64,000 nucleotides of DNA, taken from the NCBI RefSeq assembly GCF_021545335.1, contig NZ_CP089312.1, positions 186,001 through 250,000 on the forward strand, read 5' to 3'. The translations under genes were made by a program, and so were the position numbers. Source of the stretch: Streptomyces sp. GQFP. GTDB lineage: Bacteria; Actinomycetota; Actinomycetes; Streptomycetales; Streptomycetaceae. Below the pieces are notes generated by a model that saw only the letters and a program-made list of their open reading frames with translations, did no database searches and had not been told where the DNA came from. Below are positions 3,049 through 16,462 of this stretch, one piece after another; the first letter of the stretch is position 1; each line of letters opens with the position of its first letter.

Positions 3049-4030
3049 AGACGAGTCATTCCGATGTGATCAGTGGTCATAAGCAATCAAGGACCGGATG
3101 ACGGGCTGGCCGGTCTTGTGGTTGTGCCAGATCGCGGCGGCCATCGCGAGGATGCGTTGGGCGACGCGGACGGCGACACCTTCGAAGGTCCGGCCGCCGT
3201 GCTGTTCCAGGTCGAGCTGGCCTTTGAGGGTGTCGTTGACCGACTCGATCAGCTGCCGCACCGACTTCAGGAGGCTCTCCCCTCTGCGCTTCCTCTCGCG
3301 CTTGAACGACGGCCGCAGCAACTCCGAGCCCCGGAAGGCCAGATCGGCCTCGAACTCCCTGGAGGCGAAGCCCTTGTCCGCGATGACCAGCAGGCCCGGC
3401 CGGTCCGTGGCCAGGTGCGGTTCGCGGTCCAGCATCGCCGACAGCACCTCCCGCTCGTCCAGTTTCGGGTTCGCCAGTGCCCACAGGACGGGCATCCCGG
3501 TCGGGGTGCACACCAGGAACAGGCGCAGGCCCCAGAAGAACCGGGAGTGCGAGGCGCAGTACCCGTATCCGGCCCAGCCGGCCATGTCCGACCGCTTCAC
3601 CGTCGGACGCGAGCGGCCGCACTCCACCGGCGTGGAGTCGATGATCCAGTGGTTGTCGAACCAGAAGTCCGTGTCGACGGCCAGCAGTCGTATTGCCTTC
3701 TTGACCAGCGGCAACGCGGCCCGCAGCCGCTTGTTCCAGCCCGGCTGCCTGGGAACGTAGGGGAACATCGCTCCCAGCCGGGAGTCCACGAACCGCAGCC
3801 AGCGCGACTCCGAGGTGAAGCCCAGCAGCGCCTGTGCGACCGCAAGGGTGACCAGCTCGGAATCCGTCAGCCGCGGCGGTCGGCCAAGCCATCGGGTACC
3901 TCCGATCTCGTCGTCGATCTTCACGTACAGTGCGGTCAGCAGGGCGTCTAGGTTGTTCGTCACACAACGATCTTGGACGCCCTGTCTGCGTTCCCGGACG
4001 CACCGTCAACATTCGGAATGACTCGTCTAG
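3047..4030. mobile_element. IS982-family insertion sequence, about 984 bp
   Basis: Perfect 18-bp terminal inverted repeats bound the element: CTAGACGAGTCATTCCGA at 3047-3064 and its reverse complement at 4013-4030. A single intact transposase gene fills the interior, and the length is typical of IS982. No convincing target-site duplication is visible: the left flank reads GCGCCC and the right flank AAGCAGG. Because CTAG is itself a palindrome, the exact ends could lie a few bases further in. It was inserted into the dispersed intergenic repeat at 3021-3048, whose other half is not found beyond the right end. Confidence 0.9.
3070..3963 (-). CDS. IS982 family transposase
   Basis: A 297-residue DDE transposase of the IS982 family, full length and uninterrupted. 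It starts with GTG at 3963, just inside the right inverted repeat. Recognisable catalytic blocks are WIIDSTPVE (first Asp), VIADKGF (second Asp) and the RQLIESVND segment (Glu). The stretch SDMAGWAGYGYCASHSRFFW is highly characteristic of actinobacterial members. The protein should be able to mobilise this IS. I saw no second copy of it in the window. Confidence 0.93.
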   Translation of the reverse strand: MTNNLDALLTALYVKIDDEIGGTRWLGRPPRLTDSELVTLAVAQALLGFTSESRWLRFVDSRLGAMFPYVPRQPGWNKRLRAALPLVKKAIRLLAVDTDFWFDNHWIIDSTPVECGRSRPTVKRSDMAGWAGYGYCASHSRFFWGLRLFLVCTPTGMPVLWALANPKLDEREVLSAMLDREPHLATDRPGLLVIADKGFASREFEADLAFRGSELLRPSFKRERKRRGESLLKSVRQLIESVNDTLKGQLDLEQHGGRTFEGVAVRVAQRILAMAAAIWHNHKTGQPVIRSLIAYDH

Positions 4031-4071: not shown

Positions 4072-5982
4072 CTAGTTCTGCTGCACCGCCATCGGATCGA
4101 AGGTGATCCTGGTACGTACGCCGTGCTCTGCCCAGGTCACCTCGACCGTCGTGTCCGTCACCTCGACCTCGGAGATCACCTGCTCGGGTACCAGCGGGGT
4201 CGGGTCCGCCGTGAGAGTCGCCAGAGCCACGTACAGGGACGCGCCCTCGCCCGTCAGGCGGGGGACGACGGCCCAGCGGGTGTAGGCCGTGCCCTGGGGG
4301 GCTCGGGTCTCCTCCGCCTCCGGGGTCCAGCCGTACAGGCCGTGCAGGGTCGACGTCACCGCCTCCTCCGGGCCCGTCGCCCAGCCGGTGTGCGTGACGC
4401 GCGCCCCGGGCGGGGCGCCGATCACCCGGTGTACGCGCAGTTCGTGGCGGCCTCGTACGACCGTGATGCTCTCCACCCGCAGGCCCGGCACCATCGGCGG
4501 GCCCGCGGTGAAGACCGGACGGTGCCAGGAGGCCGCCCAGCCCCAGTCGTCGCCGTGGCCCGCGCCCAGGGGGTGGATACGGCGGCGCACGCTGCCCCGG
4601 CCGGCGATCTCCACGGAGAGATGGTTGTCGGCGATGTTGGCGGGAGCGGTCGGTCCTGAGTGGGTCGAGTAGGCCTGGCGGCCGTAGTGCGGGTCGTTCT
4701 CGGCCGCCGTCTCGCCCTCGTGCGGGCGGACGTGGTCGCTGCCGTGGTTGTGGAGTCGTACGATCCCGTCCGCGCGGGTCGACTGCACCAGCAGGCCGGG
4801 GGCGGGCAACGCCAGCACCCGGTCGCTCTCCTCCACCGGTGCCTGTTCCTCGCGGGCCGTCCAGAGGGGGGCGTCGGCGGGTGCGAGCAGGGAGACGAAG
4901 GCCTTCGAGGCCCAGTACGGGGATGCCGGGCCCGAGTACGTCTGGAGGGTCGCCTGGTGGGCGCCGTGCCAGCCGAGTGTCAGCAGGCCGTCCTCGGTCA
5001 GGGCGCCCCGGTCCAGGAAGTGGCGAAGGCTGCCGCTGATGAGGCGGCGGCTCGTTCCGGGGGTGAGCGGGGTGTCGCCGGTGAGGGCGCCCAGGCCTAC
5101 GGCAGCAGAGGCGGCGAAGCGGTACGACAGGGAGCGGCCGAAGTGGATCGGCGCGCCGTCTCCGCCGAACATCAGCGCGAAGCCGTCGAGGTGTTCTCGC
5201 AGGCGGGGGCCGTACAACGCCGACAGGTCCCGGTCGTCGCCCAGGTACGCGTCCAGCACCGGGTACAGGTGCAGGGCCCAGCCGTTGTAGTGGTCGAAGG
5301 CCCGGCCGTCGCCGTCCGCGTACCAGCCGTCGCCCCGGTACCAGGTCTCCATCAGCTCTTGGGCGCGTTCGCGGGACCTCGTCGTCTCCGCGTCGCCGCG
5401 CCCGACCGACTCGAGGAAACCGGCGACCGTGTACGGGAAGAGGTACCAGTTGTTCGGGGCCGGCGTGTGGCGCAGTGAGCCGCGCAGCCATTCCTCCGCG
5501 CGGTCCTGTACGGCTGAGTCGAGCCGTTTCCACAGCCAGGGCGCCGTCAGGCGCAGCCCGAGCGCCACTGAGGCCGACTCGACCATCGGCTGGCCCTGGA
5601 CGTCGTGGTCGAGGATGAGCGGCCAGGACTCGGTGTCCGCGCGGCCGGGGGTGCGGGTGCCCGCCGTGAGGCCCTGGGCGTAGCGGTCGAGCCAGCCGTG
5701 CGGGTCGTCGCCGTCCGCGCCCGCGACACGGAAGGCGGCGGCGAGGAAGGTGCGGGCGTAGCCTTCGAGTCCGTCGGAGCGCACGCCCGAGCGTGACGGC
5801 ACGCCGGGCAGGTCGAGCAGGGCGCCGCCGGGGGTGCTCCAGCGCCAGGCGGCGGCCAGCAGTCCGTCGGCCACGGCCTCCCAGTGGGCCCGCGTGTAGC
5901 CGGTGTGCGGGCTCGACTCGCGGTCCTCGGGCGGGAGTTCGAAGGGGATACCGCTGCTGCTGTTGCGGGTCGTGCTGCTCAT
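4072..5982 (-). CDS. DUF2264 domain-containing protein, likely carbohydrate-active
   Basis: A 636-residue soluble protein matching the DUF2264 family over most of its length (GYTRAHWEAVADGLL, LEGYARTFLAAAF, HYNGWALHLYPVLDAY, FGRSLSYRFAASAAVG). Family members resemble alpha/alpha-toroid polysaccharide lyases and unsaturated glycuronyl hydrolases, and are found beside sugar ABC transporters; the reaction is not established here. No signal peptide is seen, so it should act on an imported sugar. The start ATG at 5982 overlaps the stop of the upstream 2-hydroxyacid dehydrogenase as ATGA, indicating translational coupling. It is the last gene of the sugar cluster before the IS. Confidence 0.82.
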   Translation of the reverse strand: MSSTTRNSSSGIPFELPPEDRESSPHTGYTRAHWEAVADGLLAAAWRWSTPGGALLDLPGVPSRSGVRSDGLEGYARTFLAAAFRVAGADGDDPHGWLDRYAQGLTAGTRTPGRADTESWPLILDHDVQGQPMVESASVALGLRLTAPWLWKRLDSAVQDRAEEWLRGSLRHTPAPNNWYLFPYTVAGFLESVGRGDAETTRSRERAQELMETWYRGDGWYADGDGRAFDHYNGWALHLYPVLDAYLGDDRDLSALYGPRLREHLDGFALMFGGDGAPIHFGRSLSYRFAASAAVGLGALTGDTPLTPGTSRRLISGSLRHFLDRGALTEDGLLTLGWHGAHQATLQTYSGPASPYWASKAFVSLLAPADAPLWTAREEQAPVEESDRVLALPAPGLLVQSTRADGIVRLHNHGSDHVRPHEGETAAENDPHYGRQAYSTHSGPTAPANIADNHLSVEIAGRGSVRRRIHPLGAGHGDDWGWAASWHRPVFTAGPPMVPGLRVESITVVRGRHELRVHRVIGAPPGARVTHTGWATGPEEAVTSTLHGLYGWTPEAEETRAPQGTAYTRWAVVPRLTGEGASLYVALATLTADPTPLVPEQVISEVEVTDTTVEVTWAEHGVRTRITFDPMAVQQN

Positions 5983-7010
5983 GCGAGGAAGGCCAGCCTT
6001 TCGCGTCGTACGGGATGGCGGAATCCGGCGCCGGACGCCCAGTGTTCCGTCTCGCCGACGGCGAGGTCGGCAAGGCGGCGCCACTCGTTGCCCTGGGAAC
6101 CGGCGAGGTGGGGGGTGAGGAGAGCGTCGGGGCAGGTCCACAACGGGTGCTCGGGCGGCAGGACTTCGGGGTCGGTGACATCGAGCACGGCCCGGATGCG
6201 GCGTTCCCGGACCGCGTCGGTGAGGGCGTCCTGGTCGACGACGCCTCCTCGGGCGGTGTTGATGAACACGGCGCCCGGGCGCATGGAGTCGAGCAGGGCG
6301 CGGCTCACCAGGCCCCGGGTGGCGGGCAGCAGGGGGGTGTGCAGGCTGACCGTGTCGGAGCGGGCGAACAGGGCGTCCAACTCGACGCGTTTCACGCCTA
6401 GTTCGGCCGCTTCGGCGTCGGTGACGTAGGGGTCGTACAGGAGGATCTCGAAGTCGTGGGGGTGCAGGAGTTCGATGACTCGGCGGCCGACCAGGGAGGC
6501 GGAGACGATGCCCACGGTGCGGCGGTAGTTGCCGATCGTGCGGGAGGTGCGCAGCCAGTCGTCCCGGGTCTGGGTGGTGACGTACGCCTGGGCCCGTTCC
6601 AGGACGTGTTTGCCGGTGAGCAGGATCATGGCGAGGGTGTACTCGGCGACTGGCAGGGCGTTCGCGGCGGCGGCGGACGACACCTCGATGCCGCGCTCCC
6701 AGCAGGCCTCGGTGACATGCGGGCGGACACTGCCCGCCGTGTGTACGACCGCCCGCAGCCGGGGTGCCGCCGCGAGGGCGTCGGCGTCGAGGGCGGGGCA
6801 GCCCCAGCCGGTGACGAGGAGGTCGACGTCGGCGAGGATCTTGCGGGCGCGTTCGGTGCCGAAGTCGTCCAGGACCGGCAGCGGGGCGAGGTCACAGACG
6901 GTCGCGAGAGCGTCCAGCGAGGCGGGGTCGAGGACGGCGGCTGCGGCGTCCGGGGACATGGCGAGGGCGGCGCGGGGGCGGAAGCCGGGGCCCGGCGAGG
7001 ACACGGTCAT
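5979..7010 (-). CDS. D-isomer-specific 2-hydroxyacid dehydrogenase family protein
   Basis: A 343-residue NAD(P)-dependent dehydrogenase. The Rossmann segment reads VGIVSASLVGRRVIELL, in which the usual GxGxxG is altered to GxxxxxxxG as in many actinobacterial members. The catalytic regions are NTARGGVVDQDAL (Arg), DVTDPEVLPPEHPLW (Glu) and LTPHLAGS (His). It presumably reduces or oxidises a 2-keto or 2-hydroxy acid derived from the imported carbohydrate. It overlaps the DUF2264 gene by 4 bases. A 65-bp gap separates it from the permease gene and holds a GACAAC-TTA-GACAAC direct repeat, so a second promoter is possible. Confidence 0.85.
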   Translation of the reverse strand: MTVSSPGPGFRPRAALAMSPDAAAAVLDPASLDALATVCDLAPLPVLDDFGTERARKILADVDLLVTGWGCPALDADALAAAPRLRAVVHTAGSVRPHVTEACWERGIEVSSAAAANALPVAEYTLAMILLTGKHVLERAQAYVTTQTRDDWLRTSRTIGNYRRTVGIVSASLVGRRVIELLHPHDFEILLYDPYVTDAEAAELGVKRVELDALFARSDTVSLHTPLLPATRGLVSRALLDSMRPGAVFINTARGGVVDQDALTDAVRERRIRAVLDVTDPEVLPPEHPLWTCPDALLTPHLAGSQGNEWRRLADLAVGETEHWASGAGFRHPVRRERLAFLA

Positions 7011-7075: not shown

Positions 7076-7939
7076 TCATTTCACCGAGCCCGCTGTCAGG
7101 CCGCTGCGCCAGAAGCGTTGCAGCAGGGCGAAGGCGAGGATGAGCGGAATGACGGCGAGCAGGGAGCCCATGATCACCACGGGGTAGTACTCGGGCGACA
7201 CGGAGGCCGAGCTGTTCCACTGGTACAGGCCGAGGCTGACGGGATAGAGGTCCTGGTCGGAGAGCATCACCATGGGCAGGAAGAAGTTGTTCCAGATGGC
7301 GGTGAGCTGGAAGAGGAAGACCGTGACCAGGCCGGGGCCGAGCATCCGCAGCGCCACCCGTACGTAGGTGGTGAGTTCGCCCGCTCCGTCGACGCGCGCG
7401 GCCTCCAGGACCTCGTCGGGGACATAGCCCTGGCTGAAGATCCGGCCGAGGTAGACGCCGAACGGGTTGAACAGGACGGGGATGAACACGGCCCAGTAGG
7501 TGTTGACGAGGCCGGCCTCCGAGGCCATCAGGTACAGCGGCAGCGCGAGCACCGTCTGCGGCACCATGACGGCCGCCAGGACCAGGCCGAACAGTTTCTC
7601 CTTGTGCCGGAAGCTGAACTTGTCGAAGGCGTAACCGCAGGCCACGCTCACCAGGGCACCGATCCCGGCACCGAGGACGGCGTACAGCAGGCTGTTGCCG
7701 TACCAGCGGCTGTACAGGCCGTCGTCCATCGCGAACAGGTCGCGCAGGTTCTGTACGAAGGAGAAGTCGCTCAGCGACAGCAGGTTGCTGCTGAACAGCG
7801 CGTCCCGGTTCTTCCCTGCGGCGAGGACCAGCCATAGGACGGGCAGCAGGGTGTAGAGGACGGAGAGCGCGACGACCACGTTGACCGTGGCCCGGCCGAG
7901 CAGGCGTGGGCGCATGAGGGTGCTGTCGCCGGTGCTCAT
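7076..7939 (-). CDS. Carbohydrate ABC transporter permease (MalG type)
   Basis: A 287-residue inner-membrane permease with about six transmembrane segments and the EAA loop typical of sugar importers (VLEAARVDGAGELTTYVRV, residues about 190-208), which contacts the ATPase. The start ATG at 7939 overlaps the stop of the partner permease as ATGA, so the two are translationally coupled. No ATP-binding gene is present in the cluster; in Streptomyces such importers commonly share the ATPase MsiK encoded elsewhere. Confidence 0.92.
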   Translation of the reverse strand: MSTGDSTLMRPRLLGRATVNVVVALSVLYTLLPVLWLVLAAGKNRDALFSSNLLSLSDFSFVQNLRDLFAMDDGLYSRWYGNSLLYAVLGAGIGALVSVACGYAFDKFSFRHKEKLFGLVLAAVMVPQTVLALPLYLMASEAGLVNTYWAVFIPVLFNPFGVYLGRIFSQGYVPDEVLEAARVDGAGELTTYVRVALRMLGPGLVTVFLFQLTAIWNNFFLPMVMLSDQDLYPVSLGLYQWNSSASVSPEYYPVVIMGSLLAVIPLILAFALLQRFWRSGLTAGSVK

Positions 7940-8925
7940 CGGGCCGTCTCCTCGGGGGTGTTGGCGCGGCTGGTCCAGCGGGTGACGCCGTAGGACAGGG
8001 CGATCGTGCAGACGAGCAGGACGACCGAGGCGGCTGCCGCCAGGCTGTAGTTGTTGCGGGTGAAGGCGGCGTCGTAGATGTACATGCTGGGCGAGAAGCG
8101 GGAGTTGATCATCGGGGAGGACTGGCTGAGCAGCATGGGCTCGGTGAACAGCTGCAGCGCCCAGATGAGGGTGAAGATGGCGACCATGACGATCGATGTG
8201 CGGACCAGGGGTGTCTTGACCTGGAGTGCCGTACGGACCGGGCCCGCGCCGTCGACGACCGACGCCTCGATGACCTCGCGTGGTACGGCCTGGAGGGCGG
8301 CGTAGAAGACGACCATGTTGTAGCCGAGGTTGCTCCACAGGGCGATGTTCACGATCGACGGGAGCACGGTGTGGATGCCGAGGAAGTCGATGGTGATGTC
8401 GGCCTTGGCGAACAGGTCGATGACCGGGCTGATGCCGGGTGTGTAGAGGTACAGCCAGATGAGGGCGGCGATGATGCCGGGCACGGCGTGCGGCAGGAAC
8501 AGGCCGAGCTGGGCCCAGGCGCGCAGCCGTACGACGCCGGAGTCGAGGAGCAGGGCGAGGGCGAGCGCGCCGATCACCATCAGGGGGATGTAGATCAGGC
8601 AGTACAGGGCGACCGTGCCGAGCCCGGACAGGAACGTCGGGTCGGTGAGGACGGCGGCGTAGCTGCGCAGGCCGACGAAGATGGTGCGTTCGGGGCCGAA
8701 GCCGAGGCCGGGCTGGTCGTCGCTGAAGAAGCTCAGGTAGATCGCCGTGCCGACGGGGATCAGGAAGACGGTGACGAGGAGGGCTAAGAAGGGGGCCATC
8801 AGGACGGCGCACGCGGCGAGTTGACGTCGGCGGGCCGCCTTGCGGGCGCGCAGGGTCGAGACGGGAGCGGCGGCGCGGGAGGCGGCGGCAGGCGCGGGGT
8901 GGTGGGCCTGGGTGGTCGCGGTCAT
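7936..8925 (-). CDS. Sugar ABC transporter permease (MalF type), TTA codon
   Basis: A 329-residue permease with a positively charged cytoplasmic N-terminus (about 35 residues) and six predicted membrane segments. The EAA loop reads VIEASVVDGAGPVRTALQV. Leu47 is encoded by TTA (complement of 8785-8787), a codon read in Streptomyces only by the bldA tRNA, so translation probably depends on development. It pairs with the MalG-type permease (4-bp overlap) and follows the binding protein gene after 47 bp. Confidence 0.92.
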   Translation of the reverse strand: MTATTQAHHPAPAAASRAAAPVSTLRARKAARRRQLAACAVLMAPFLALLVTVFLIPVGTAIYLSFFSDDQPGLGFGPERTIFVGLRSYAAVLTDPTFLSGLGTVALYCLIYIPLMVIGALALALLLDSGVVRLRAWAQLGLFLPHAVPGIIAALIWLYLYTPGISPVIDLFAKADITIDFLGIHTVLPSIVNIALWSNLGYNMVVFYAALQAVPREVIEASVVDGAGPVRTALQVKTPLVRTSIVMVAIFTLIWALQLFTEPMLLSQSSPMINSRFSPSMYIYDAAFTRNNYSLAAAASVVLLVCTIALSYGVTRWTSRANTPEETAR

Positions 8926-8972
8926 GGGGTGTCACCTGCCTTTCGGGCGGCGGACCGTAAGGAGTTTCTGGC

Positions 8973-10322
8973 TCATGTGCTGTGCTGCGTGGTCGACAGG
9001 CCGAGGGCCTTCAGGTCGGGCATCGTGCCCTCCTGGGCCGCGCGTACGGAGTCGATGAGGGAGCCCTGGCCGCCGCCGACGCGGGCGAAGTTGTCCTGCA
9101 TCACCCGCTGGGTGGCGGTGAAGCGGGGTCCCCAGACCCAGCCGTCGCGGATCTTGTGGGCCTCCTCCTCGAAGAGGGTGTAGATGTCCTGGCCGCCGTA
9201 GTAGGAGCGGTCGAAGGCCTCGCGGCCCACGGCGACCAGCTCGGACGCGGCCGGGTACTGGCTGCTGGTGCCGCTGGAGAGGCGGGCGCGCAGCGCGTCG
9301 GGGTGGGAGACCTGCCAGGCGATGAACTCCAGGGCGGCTTCCGGGTGTTGGCTGTCCTTGGTGACCGCGAAGGTGGAGCCGCCGTGGGTGCCGACGGACG
9401 GGCGGCCGGGATCCCACTGGGGCAGCGGGGCGATCCGCCACTGGCCGGCCTGCGCGGGCCGTGCCTTCATCTGGGCGCCTGCCTCCCAGGCCCCAGTGAG
9501 CCGGGTCAGGACGAGTCCGTCGGCGATCTGCGCGTCGGACTGTCTGCTCTCGACGGCGTTCATGAAGACGAGGTCCTCGTCGATGAGGCGCTGCCAGTAG
9601 GCGGCGACGCGCCGGGTGGGGGCGTCGGCGAGGGAGACGTTCCAGGCGCCGCGGGCGGTGTCGAACCACTGGGCGCCCGCCTGCCAGGAGTAGGCGGCGA
9701 ACTGGGTGCCGCCGTCCGTGGGGAAGAGCACCAACCGTCGGCCGGGGAGTTTGCGGCGGACGGCGCGGGCCAGTTCCTCGAACTCCGCCCAGGTGCCCGG
9801 CACTTCGAAGCCGTGCTCGGCGAACAGGTCGGCGCGGTAGTGCATCACCATCGGTTCGACGTCCAACGGGACGCTGAACACACGCTGTTCGAAGGTGGTG
9901 AGGCCCAGGGCCTGTGGCAGCAGCTTGGCGCGCAGTTCGTCGCTGACCATCGAGGTGAGGTCGCGGGCGACGCCGTCGATGGCGAAGCCAGGCACCTGCG
10001 GGTATTCGATGGTGGCCACGTCGGGGGCGTTGCCCGCGCGGGCCGCGTTGCTGAGTTTGGCGTAGCCGCCCTGACCGCCGGACGGGACCTGCTGATAGTC
10101 GACCTGGATGCTGTCGTGGGTGCTGTTGAAGGCGTCCACCACCTCCTGGCTGCCGCGCAGCGCGGACCAGAAGGTGACGCGGGCGACTTGCCCGCTCCCG
10201 GCGCGCGAGGCGGAGTCCGCTCCCCCACTGCAGGCGCTCACGGCTCCTGCCAGCGGTAATGCGGCCGCCGCGGCGAGCACGGAACGACGGCTTCGTCGAC
10301 GGGGGTTCTGTCGACCAGGCAT
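8973..10322 (-). CDS. Sugar ABC transporter substrate-binding lipoprotein, TTA codon
   Basis: A 449-residue extracellular solute-binding protein of family 1. The N-terminus has a twin-arginine-like RRRSRRS, a hydrophobic stretch and a lipobox LAGAVSAC (Cys at about residue 31), so it is a membrane-anchored lipoprotein. Segments such as VTFWSALRGSQEVVDAFNST and TRLTGAWEAGAQMKA fit the family. Leu22, inside the signal peptide, is a TTA codon (complement of 10257-10259). It is the first transporter gene after the regulator. Sugar specificity cannot be read from the sequence. Confidence 0.92.
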   Translation of the reverse strand: MPGRQNPRRRSRRSVLAAAAALPLAGAVSACSGGADSASRAGSGQVARVTFWSALRGSQEVVDAFNSTHDSIQVDYQQVPSGGQGGYAKLSNAARAGNAPDVATIEYPQVPGFAIDGVARDLTSMVSDELRAKLLPQALGLTTFEQRVFSVPLDVEPMVMHYRADLFAEHGFEVPGTWAEFEELARAVRRKLPGRRLVLFPTDGGTQFAAYSWQAGAQWFDTARGAWNVSLADAPTRRVAAYWQRLIDEDLVFMNAVESRQSDAQIADGLVLTRLTGAWEAGAQMKARPAQAGQWRIAPLPQWDPGRPSVGTHGGSTFAVTKDSQHPEAALEFIAWQVSHPDALRARLSSGTSSQYPAASELVAVGREAFDRSYYGGQDIYTLFEEEAHKIRDGWVWGPRFTATQRVMQDNFARVGGGQGSLIDSVRAAQEGTMPDLKALGLSTTQHST

Positions 10323-10376
10323 GGGTGCCTCCCGTCCTGTTCGATCGAGATACGGGAATCCTCATCGGCACACCAG

Positions 10377-10423
10377 AAACGGTCAATAGAGCGATCAGAA
10401 GAAAATAAAGCGGTCAAACGATC
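10377..10423. promoter_or_regulatory. Two direct operator-like repeats upstream of the sugar-binding protein gene
   Basis: Read on the minus strand, GATCGTTTGACCGCTTT (10407-10423) and GATCGCTCTATTGACCGTTT (10377-10396) are imperfect direct repeats 55-100 bp before the start codon. A closely related TCGTTTGAACGCTTT lies at 11542-11556, upstream of the regulator gene. The shared core fits sites of the cluster's own regulator. Confidence 0.5.
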
Positions 10424-10424
10424 G

Positions 10425-11525
10425 CTACACGCTGCGGGTCGACCCGCGAACCTTCAGCTCCGGCAGCAGTTCGATCCGCCTCGCCGGTACCGCCCCACCG
10501 CCGCGCGGATCCCTCAGCCGGTGCAGGAGCAGTTCGGCGGCGGCCCGGCCGACCTCACCCTTGGGCGGGGAGACGGCGGTGAGGGGGGTGCTGCCGAGGG
10601 CGGCCACGACGTCGTCGTACGCGACGACCGAGCAGTCCTCCGGCACCCGTACGCCGTGTGCCGCCAGGTCCTGGACCAGCATCAGGGCGTCCACGTCGCC
10701 GTGCAGCACACAGGCCGTGGCGTCCAGTTCGCGCAGGACGCCGGGCAGGTCGACGGCCGGACGGTCCGCGCCGGCCGAGCGGTCGGGGCCCGCGTCGGGG
10801 GAACTGAGGGTGAGGGTCCAGGCGTCGAGTTTCGGGTGGGCCCCGGCGATCTCGGTGAGGGCTGCGCGCAGCGCCCGTGCGGTGGGGCTGTCGTCGCGGG
10901 TGGCGAAGACGATCCTGCGGTGGCCGAGGGCGATCAGGTGCTCCACGGCCAGATGGGCGCCGTACCAGTGGTCGGAGCAGACCGAGTCCAGGGCGTGCAG
11001 CGCGCTGCCGGGGCGTGGTCTGCGTTCCATCAGGACGGTCGGTACGTCCAGTCCACACAGCCACTTCGCGTCGGCCTCCTCGTCGGCGAGGGTGCGCCAG
11101 CGCGGGGCGATCAGCACACCCCGGGCGCCGTCCGCCAACGCCCGCTCCACCAGGGGGTGTTCGGCGCCGGCGACCTGCGGGGCGATGTGCAGGGCGATGC
11201 GTACGCCGGCCTCCTCCAGGACGGGTCGGGCGCCGTGCAGGGTCTCGTAGAGGTAGGAGTGGCGGGCGGGTACGACCAGGACGACGGTGTCGCCGTCGCC
11301 GGGTGCGGTGACGCGCTCGGGCGGGGCGTCCGGTACGGGGAGGGTGGAGCGGGCGATGCCGTGGCCGCGCCTGAGCCTGCCCTCGCGGGCGAGTTCCTCC
11401 ACGTCCCGGCGGACGGTGACCACCGAGACCTCCAGCTCGGCGGCGAGATCGGTCACCCGGGCGGCACCGCGTGCCTGCACGGCGGCCAGGATCCGCTGCC
11501 GCCTCAGTTCGACCGGCTCGCGCAT
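10425..11525 (-). CDS. Hybrid regulator: DeoR-type winged helix plus LacI-type sugar-binding domain
   Basis: A 366-residue regulator. Residues 1-60 are a DeoR-type winged helix (RRQRILAAVQARGAARVTDL, then SVVTVRRDVEELAREGRLRR). From about residue 70 onward it is a periplasmic-binding-protein fold of the LacI/GalR effector class (VVLVVPARHSYLYETLHGA, VAYDDVVAALGSTPLTAVSP). This combination is a known but minor class in actinobacteria. It probably represses the downstream sugar uptake genes and itself, and is relieved by the transported sugar. Candidate sites occur before the binding-protein gene and before its own gene. Confidence 0.88.
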   Translation of the reverse strand: MREPVELRRQRILAAVQARGAARVTDLAAELEVSVVTVRRDVEELAREGRLRRGHGIARSTLPVPDAPPERVTAPGDGDTVVLVVPARHSYLYETLHGARPVLEEAGVRIALHIAPQVAGAEHPLVERALADGARGVLIAPRWRTLADEEADAKWLCGLDVPTVLMERRPRPGSALHALDSVCSDHWYGAHLAVEHLIALGHRRIVFATRDDSPTARALRAALTEIAGAHPKLDAWTLTLSSPDAGPDRSAGADRPAVDLPGVLRELDATACVLHGDVDALMLVQDLAAHGVRVPEDCSVVAYDDVVAALGSTPLTAVSPPKGEVGRAAAELLLHRLRDPRGGGAVPARRIELLPELKVRGSTRSV

Positions 11526-15832: not shown

Positions 15833-16462
15833 TCAGTTGGCCGACCCGTCCGCATGCCGCCGGGCTGACTCGTTCTCCTGGGCCATGCGCCGCAGCGCCA
15901 AGAGCGCGGGTTCCAGGAGGACGGTGAGCAGGAGGGCGCGCTCGGCGACCTCCAACGGGTCCTCGATCCCGTCCAGTTGGTCGAGGTCGAGGACCGCGGT
16001 CTGCTCGGCCAGTCGGGCGTACGGCAGGAGCACCCGCCAATCCAGCGGTAAGCCGAGAGTTCGTAGCGAGGCCAGGGTCTCGGCCAGGGTGGCGCGGGCG
16101 GGTGCGGACCCGTGCACGTTCCAGCCCAACTTCCCGATCAGCGCGTCGACTTCGGCCGGTTCCGAGGAGTCCGGTTCGGTCTCGTCAGCCAACCGGATCG
16201 CCCCGAGGGTGAGTCCGAGAAGGCGGTGGGTGTCTGTGGTGTCCTCGGCGAGAGCGCCCAGCACCTCCCGGGTCGTGCTGACGGACAGGCCGCGTACGCC
16301 GATCAGCGCACGGATCAGCCGGAGTCTGCGCAGGTGGTTCTCGTCGTACTCGGCCTGGGTCACCGACAGCTGGCGGCCGGCCGGGAGGAGACCTTCGCGG
16401 AGGTAGTACTTGATCGTCGGGACAGAGACACCACTACGGCGGCTCAGCTCGGACATACGCAT
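15833..16462 (-). CDS. MerR-family transcriptional regulator, TTA codon
   Basis: A 209-residue regulator with an N-terminal MerR winged helix (MSELSRRSGVSVPTIKYYL) and a long helical region, ending in an all-helical effector domain without obvious metal-binding cysteines. Leu138 is a TTA codon (complement of 16049-16051), implying bldA-dependent production. It is divergent from a small ORF and a DHA2 exporter, across a 67-bp gap holding an 11-bp inverted repeat. The likely role is drug-responsive control of the exporter. Confidence 0.9.
   Translation of the reverse strand: MRMSELSRRSGVSVPTIKYYLREGLLPAGRQLSVTQAEYDENHLRRLRLIRALIGVRGLSVSTTREVLGALAEDTTDTHRLLGLTLGAIRLADETEPDSSEPAEVDALIGKLGWNVHGSAPARATLAETLASLRTLGLPLDWRVLLPYARLAEQTAVLDLDQLDGIEDPLEVAERALLLTVLLEPALLALRRMAQENESARRHADGSAN

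Follow-up and report, generated by a model that had tools for sequence, protein, structure and literature searches.

The two TTA codons found in neighbouring sugar-uptake genes of Streptomyces sp. GQFP are quite probably recent, lineage-limited substitutions in an ordinary carbohydrate ABC-importer operon, and not a selected or conserved developmental switch. The operon lies in the window, which is the whole stretch of DNA that was analysed (64,000 nucleotides, bases 186001-250000 of a single 8.31 Mb contig). A preliminary description of this DNA had taken the codon pair as a sign of bldA control, by which uptake of the sugar should switch on late in development. The decoding premise of that reading holds, with a tRNA-Leu(TAA) and an adpA-like TTA-bearing gene present in the genome, but a selected switch of the operon is unsupported in view of the orthologues without TTA.

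Gene content and control region of the operon

Six genes on the minus strand make up the operon, in the order regulator, binding protein, two permeases, D-2-hydroxyacid dehydrogenase and DUF2264 protein. The regulator gene (10425..11525, 366 aa) encodes a DeoR-type DNA-binding domain (PF08220, E 1.8e-12) fused to a LacI-type sugar sensor (PF13377, E 2.6e-29), and the next gene (8973..10322, 449 aa) encodes an extracellular sugar-binding lipoprotein (SBP_bac_1, PF01547, E 3.8e-38), whose RBS-like GGGAGG and ATG are kept among relatives. Then come the genes encoding a MalF/UgpA-type permease (7936..8925, 329 aa; PF00528, E 2.6e-12) and a MalG/UgpE-type permease (7076..7939, 287 aa; PF00528, E 8.3e-11); the latter gene is without TTA, and its ATG overlaps the stop of the MalF-type gene. 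The last two genes encode a D-2-hydroxyacid dehydrogenase (5979..7010, 343 aa; PF02826, E 5.7e-46) and a DUF2264 protein (4072..5982; PF10022, E 4e-98), the probable start of the latter, ATG at 5982, overlapping the dehydrogenase stop. A transposase gene (DDE_Tnp_1) was observed just downstream of the operon, at 3070-3963.

An SBP_bac_1 lipoprotein and two BPD_transp_1 permeases, all above the Pfam cut-offs and encoded in one putative operon, were taken as a carbohydrate ABC importer, similar in composition to the MalE/MalF/MalG-type importers. Every NCBIfam match of the transporter proteins was far under its cut-off and no equivalog reached it, the top match of the MalF-type permease being UgpA, likewise under its cut-off. 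No ATPase gene was found among the six operon genes. There are Streptomyces importers that share the MsiK ATPase, and the present importer resembles them in having no ATPase gene among the six.

The closest solved relative of the DUF2264 protein is 9o4u, named beta-D-glucuronic acid dehydratase (E 8.7e-26), and resemblance was also found to the chains 9nwf (named glucuronic acid dehydratase) and 8oi4 (named beta-galactosidase). Because of the likeness to chains named glucuronic acid dehydratase, a uronate-containing sugar may be guessed as the substrate of the operon. A literature search for the word DUF2264 found no paper containing it.

Between the regulator and binding-protein genes, a block on the minus strand (10376..10424) carries two TTGACCG elements, the first of which is TTGAGCG in the consensus of the relatives. 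Strong conservation of the block was seen across 55 distinct sequences, the window and relatives with at least 78% binding-protein identity, and it is likely to be the operator and promoter. The conserved control of the operon is most likely transcriptional, acting through the DeoR/LacI-type regulator and this operator-like block.

Position of the TTA codons and chance expectation

Codon 22 of the binding-lipoprotein gene (10257..10259) and codon 47 of the MalF-type permease gene (8785..8787) are both TTA (Leu), in frame on the minus strand, so that the two codons named in the preliminary description were confirmed. Codon 22 falls within the hydrophobic stretch of the signal peptide. The codon-model caller puts the start of the binding-protein gene at 10280 and not at 10322, and the TTA is in frame with either start.

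The same description had counted only three TTA codons, which is also what the codon-model caller gave: of the 59 genes it called in the window, 3 have a single TTA, and the one outside the operon is 15833-16456. A cruder GC3 caller gave seven TTA in 47 window ORFs; the four extra ones sit upstream of the codon-model starts, in three ORFs called by both. The window total is thus 3 to 7, with the extra four counting only if these three genes start further upstream, and 3 was used here. The codon-model starts are rough, and TTA close to a true start may be missed or non-coding TTA counted.

To obtain a chance expectation, 60 stretches of 20 kb across the contig (1.2 Mb) were sampled with the codon-model gene caller. 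TTA was carried by 34 of 997 genes, with 36 TTA among 34,073 Leu codons, a rate that may truly be higher in the genome since the caller can trim gene starts. At this rate the six-gene operon, with 279 Leu codons, is expected to hold 0.295 TTA, and the probability of at least two is 0.036 for a single operon chosen in advance. Of the 450 adjacent pairs in the 1.2 Mb sample (same strand, gap under 150 bases), 1 had TTA in both genes against 0.52 expected, corresponding to about 3.6 expected pairs per genome. The pair had been called striking; it is uncommon and only weakly above chance, but not exceptional. Another adjacent TTA pair was seen in the sample at L284 2478-5356 (codon 10; codons 125 and 629).

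TTA in the sample was concentrated near gene starts, 15 of the 36 lying within codons 2-50 as counted from the rough starts. The TTA share of Leu codons was 0.30% in codons 2-50 and 0.072% later, a ratio of 4.15 that is approximate because the codon-model gene starts are rough, while the early/late ratio of CTA (238 of 34,053 in the sample) was 1.21. This agrees with the positional bias of TTA to gene starts in Streptomyces described in PMC4255298.

Comparison with orthologous operons

A total of 150 loci was compared, consisting of the window, 69 loci of the genus and 80 loci from a second relative set, which were 80 of 176 relatives. Among the genus matches, every one of the 65 with at least 63% binding-protein identity was used (not counting that of the window), together with 4 out of 15 at 54-57%; matches below 50% identity were left out as another family. 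The relative sets overlap, and distinct-sequence counts are therefore given beside the locus counts. The 80 (of 176) binding-protein relatives were all labelled Streptomyces or Kitasatospora. In the relatives these genes stand on one strand at a single locus; where one is missing, the contig mostly ends there, but a few are truly absent (L128, L129). The dehydrogenase gene was found in 145 of the 150 loci and the gene for the MalF-type permease in 144, some of the remaining loci ending at a contig border. The closest relatives among the matches listed were S. geranii A301 (95% protein identity; about 94% DNA identity in the binding-protein gene) and S. turgidiscabies Car8 (91% protein identity).

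At codon 22 of the binding-protein gene, the 150 loci have CTG (53), GTA (36), CTA (22), CTC (9), GCG (8), GTG (7), CTT (6), GCA (3), TTA (2) and TTG, GTT, ACC and ATC (1 each). The two TTA belong to the window and S. geranii (L147), leaving 1 of 149 relative loci with TTA. At codon 47 of the permease gene, the 144 loci have TTC (131), CTC (4), CTG (3), ACG (3) and TTA, TAC and CTA (1 each), and the only TTA is that of the window (0 of 143 relative loci). S. geranii has TTA at codon 22 and TTC at codon 47, and S. turgidiscabies has CTG and TTC. The preliminary description had named orthologues without TTA at both positions as refuting its reading; TTA is absent from 148 of 149 relative loci at codon 22 and from 143 of 143 at codon 47, and a conserved developmental link of the operon is not supported.

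Two further searches were made. In a separate DNA search of 61 relatives, 17 matched, all of the window's genus, and the further loci from the DNA search (overlapping genomes and more distant family members) had no TTA at either site, 13 of them covering codon 22 and 24 covering codon 47. A second draw from the genus added no strain to the S. geranii group: 1 of 391 genomes matched at E <= 1e-256, namely the already-known G143.

Over all six operon genes, 112-118 distinct relatives per gene, the window not counted, have 1 TTA in 31,778 Leu codons, whereas 33.6 would be expected at the sampled rate of this genome, indicating that the operon is normally TTA-free. This depletion is partly general codon bias, since CTA is scarce too (56 of 31,778 in the relatives' operon against 238 of 34,053 in the genome sample). 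Measured against the near-zero TTA rate of the operon in relatives the pair is more unusual, but this comparison is post hoc. By a rough estimate, that a nearly TTA-free operon should gain TTA twice in a single lineage would be a coincidence of perhaps 1 in 50, a point against the reading as chance substitutions.

Origin of each TTA codon

Ancestral states were inferred from the codon comparisons across loci. The TTA at codon 47 does not appear to be a recoded Leu, because 131 of 143 relative loci have Phe (TTC) there. It is most simply read as a missense change from Phe to Leu, one base from TTC and confined to this genome. The A-ending share of this column is 2%.

The column of codon 22 is different in composition, with 40% A-ending codons among 115 distinct sequences (window included), the fifth highest share of the gene. 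CTA, one base from TTA, occurs in 17 of the 115 and CTG in 43, so the lipoprotein TTA plausibly arose by one base change from CTA, in an A-ending-rich column of the signal peptide. The proposed substitutions are a change from CTA to TTA at codon 22, common to the window and S. geranii, and a change from TTC to TTA at codon 47 in this genome only. The first TTA may have survived one speciation, since it is kept in S. geranii, which counts against a merely chance origin of the pair.

Another reading of codon 22 is that its A-ending state is locally selected, through a slow or weakly structured signal-peptide message, so that TTA is just one of the allowed states and has no developmental meaning. 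This fits the rank of the column within the gene, and also the codons 15-35, which in the same 115 sequences are on average 11.2% A-ending against 2.6% after codon 35. It would cover the first site only, given the low A-ending share of the permease column, and the CTG found in 43 sequences also argues against it. We consider such selection possible, though doubtful; it is compatible with recent lineage-limited substitution as the best explanation and may be part of it. Taken over the 115 distinct sequences, the signal-peptide region of the binding-protein gene shows a roughly fourfold enrichment of A-ending codons.

Decoding of TTA in this genome

One tRNA-Leu(TAA) was detected with ARAGORN (G000:C1:6294177-6294260), matching that of genome G233 at 84 of 85 compared positions; the anticodon check covered 41 of 60 tRNA places, including all of 80 nt or more, in an assembly rated 78% complete. 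As a positive control, an adpA-like gene was also found, with TTA at codon 225, between the DJ-1/PfpI domain (residues 57-192) and the AraC-type HTH (254-332), and it adjoins an RNase_T gene. The bldA-adpA arrangement described for streptomycetes in PMC4255298 is present in this genome. The one tRNA-Leu(TAA) detected and the TTA-bearing adpA-like gene make the existence of a bldA-type switch in this strain very probable, and both importer genes have an in-frame TTA with one genomic tRNA reading UUA.

No tRNA-Leu(CAA) was found in the 78%-complete assembly, and BLAST with the G233 gene gave nothing good. The BLAST miss means little, since the query matches only 35 of 121 genomes of the genus. 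The response-regulator gene beside tRNA-Leu(CAA) in G233, which we take to be PdtaR-like, has a best match of 45% identity in this genome. A real loss of tRNA-Leu(CAA) was considered and set aside, a missing stretch of assembly being judged more likely at a completeness of 78%. If tRNA-Leu(CAA) were really absent, the reading of UUG would also fall to the bldA tRNA, which could then hardly be dispensable.

The state of the assembly also bears on whether a sequence error accounts for part of the TTA pattern. The permease codon is one base off TTC, the single-contig assembly is rated incomplete, and the flanking response regulator is only 45% identical at best. Missing stretches, however, imply no base errors, the open frames of the six operon genes are all intact, and the first TTA was independently found in S. 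geranii, making an error highly improbable.

Consequences for bldA dependence

The two codons put translation of both proteins formally under tRNA-Leu(TAA), and a bldA-limited delay of sugar uptake in this strain is therefore possible as a side effect. A late switch-on is no automatic consequence of TTA, since PMC4932002 notes TTA genes that are expressed in bldA-deficient strains. If the dependence is real, near strains with other codons at the two sites would provide a neat natural experiment.

It is also conceivable that the operon has been captured by bldA. In that case the first TTA, dating from the common ancestor with S. geranii, would have made translation of the importer late, and the second would have followed as a reinforcement or, with the first already fixed, as an almost neutral change. 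The sharing with S. geranii, the place of both codons near gene starts, which is typical in the genome sample and in PMC4255298, and the presence of one tRNA-Leu(TAA) with a TTA-bearing adpA-like gene are consistent with capture, and the SCO0381-0401 cluster, with two TTA genes in one possible operon (PMC2000904), offers a precedent. Against it, neither site is TTA in the close S. turgidiscabies (CTG and TTC), codon 47 of S. geranii is TTC, and the permease TTA seems to be the product of a Phe missense mutation and not a Leu recoding. We hold it unlikely that in the S. geranii lineage an operon nearly TTA-free elsewhere in the genus recently came under bldA by a first TTA in the signal peptide and, in this species, a later one in the permease. 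If true, it would give a snapshot of an operon drawn stepwise into a developmental translation switch. Under the preferred reading of recent lineage-limited substitutions, the operon illustrates, clearly if on a small scale, how TTA codons are known to come and go in Streptomyces, and TTA in a gene alone is no evidence of developmental control.

Comparison with known TTA-bearing genes

Streptomyces genomes are described as having 51-505 TTA ORFs, with a mean of 177, which tend to the chromosome arms and whose TTA codons are mostly poorly conserved (PMC10327506). The importer genes resemble the Streptomyces TTA genes described in PMC10327506 and PMC4255298 in that rare TTA codons of low conservation stand near the starts of auxiliary genes, beside one tRNA-Leu(TAA). 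They differ from typical ones in that two in one operon are uncommon, though a few such pairs per genome are expected.

The adpA-like gene is a TTA-bearing gene of the same genome. The adpA TTA is described as present in all streptomycetes analysed, with its importance proven by mutagenesis (PMC4255298), whereas the two codons of the operon are not conserved; orthologue comparison in this way separates recent TTA substitutions from kept ones.

The deoxysugar/glycosyltransferase cluster SCO0381-0401 of S. coelicolor likewise has a possible operon with TTA in two non-regulatory genes. In a bldA mutant, 4 of 5 measured proteins of this cluster were reduced and downstream proteins were missing, for which polarity was suggested (PMC2000904). 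That cluster is biosynthetic and was studied by proteomics, whereas the operon described here encodes an importer.

When the literature on bldA or TTA was searched together with sugar, carbohydrate or ABC-transporter, no title on TTA in importers of this type was found among the matches listed, and no claim of novelty is made. TTA codons were noted in txtR and in two cellulose-related genes in PMC5332605.
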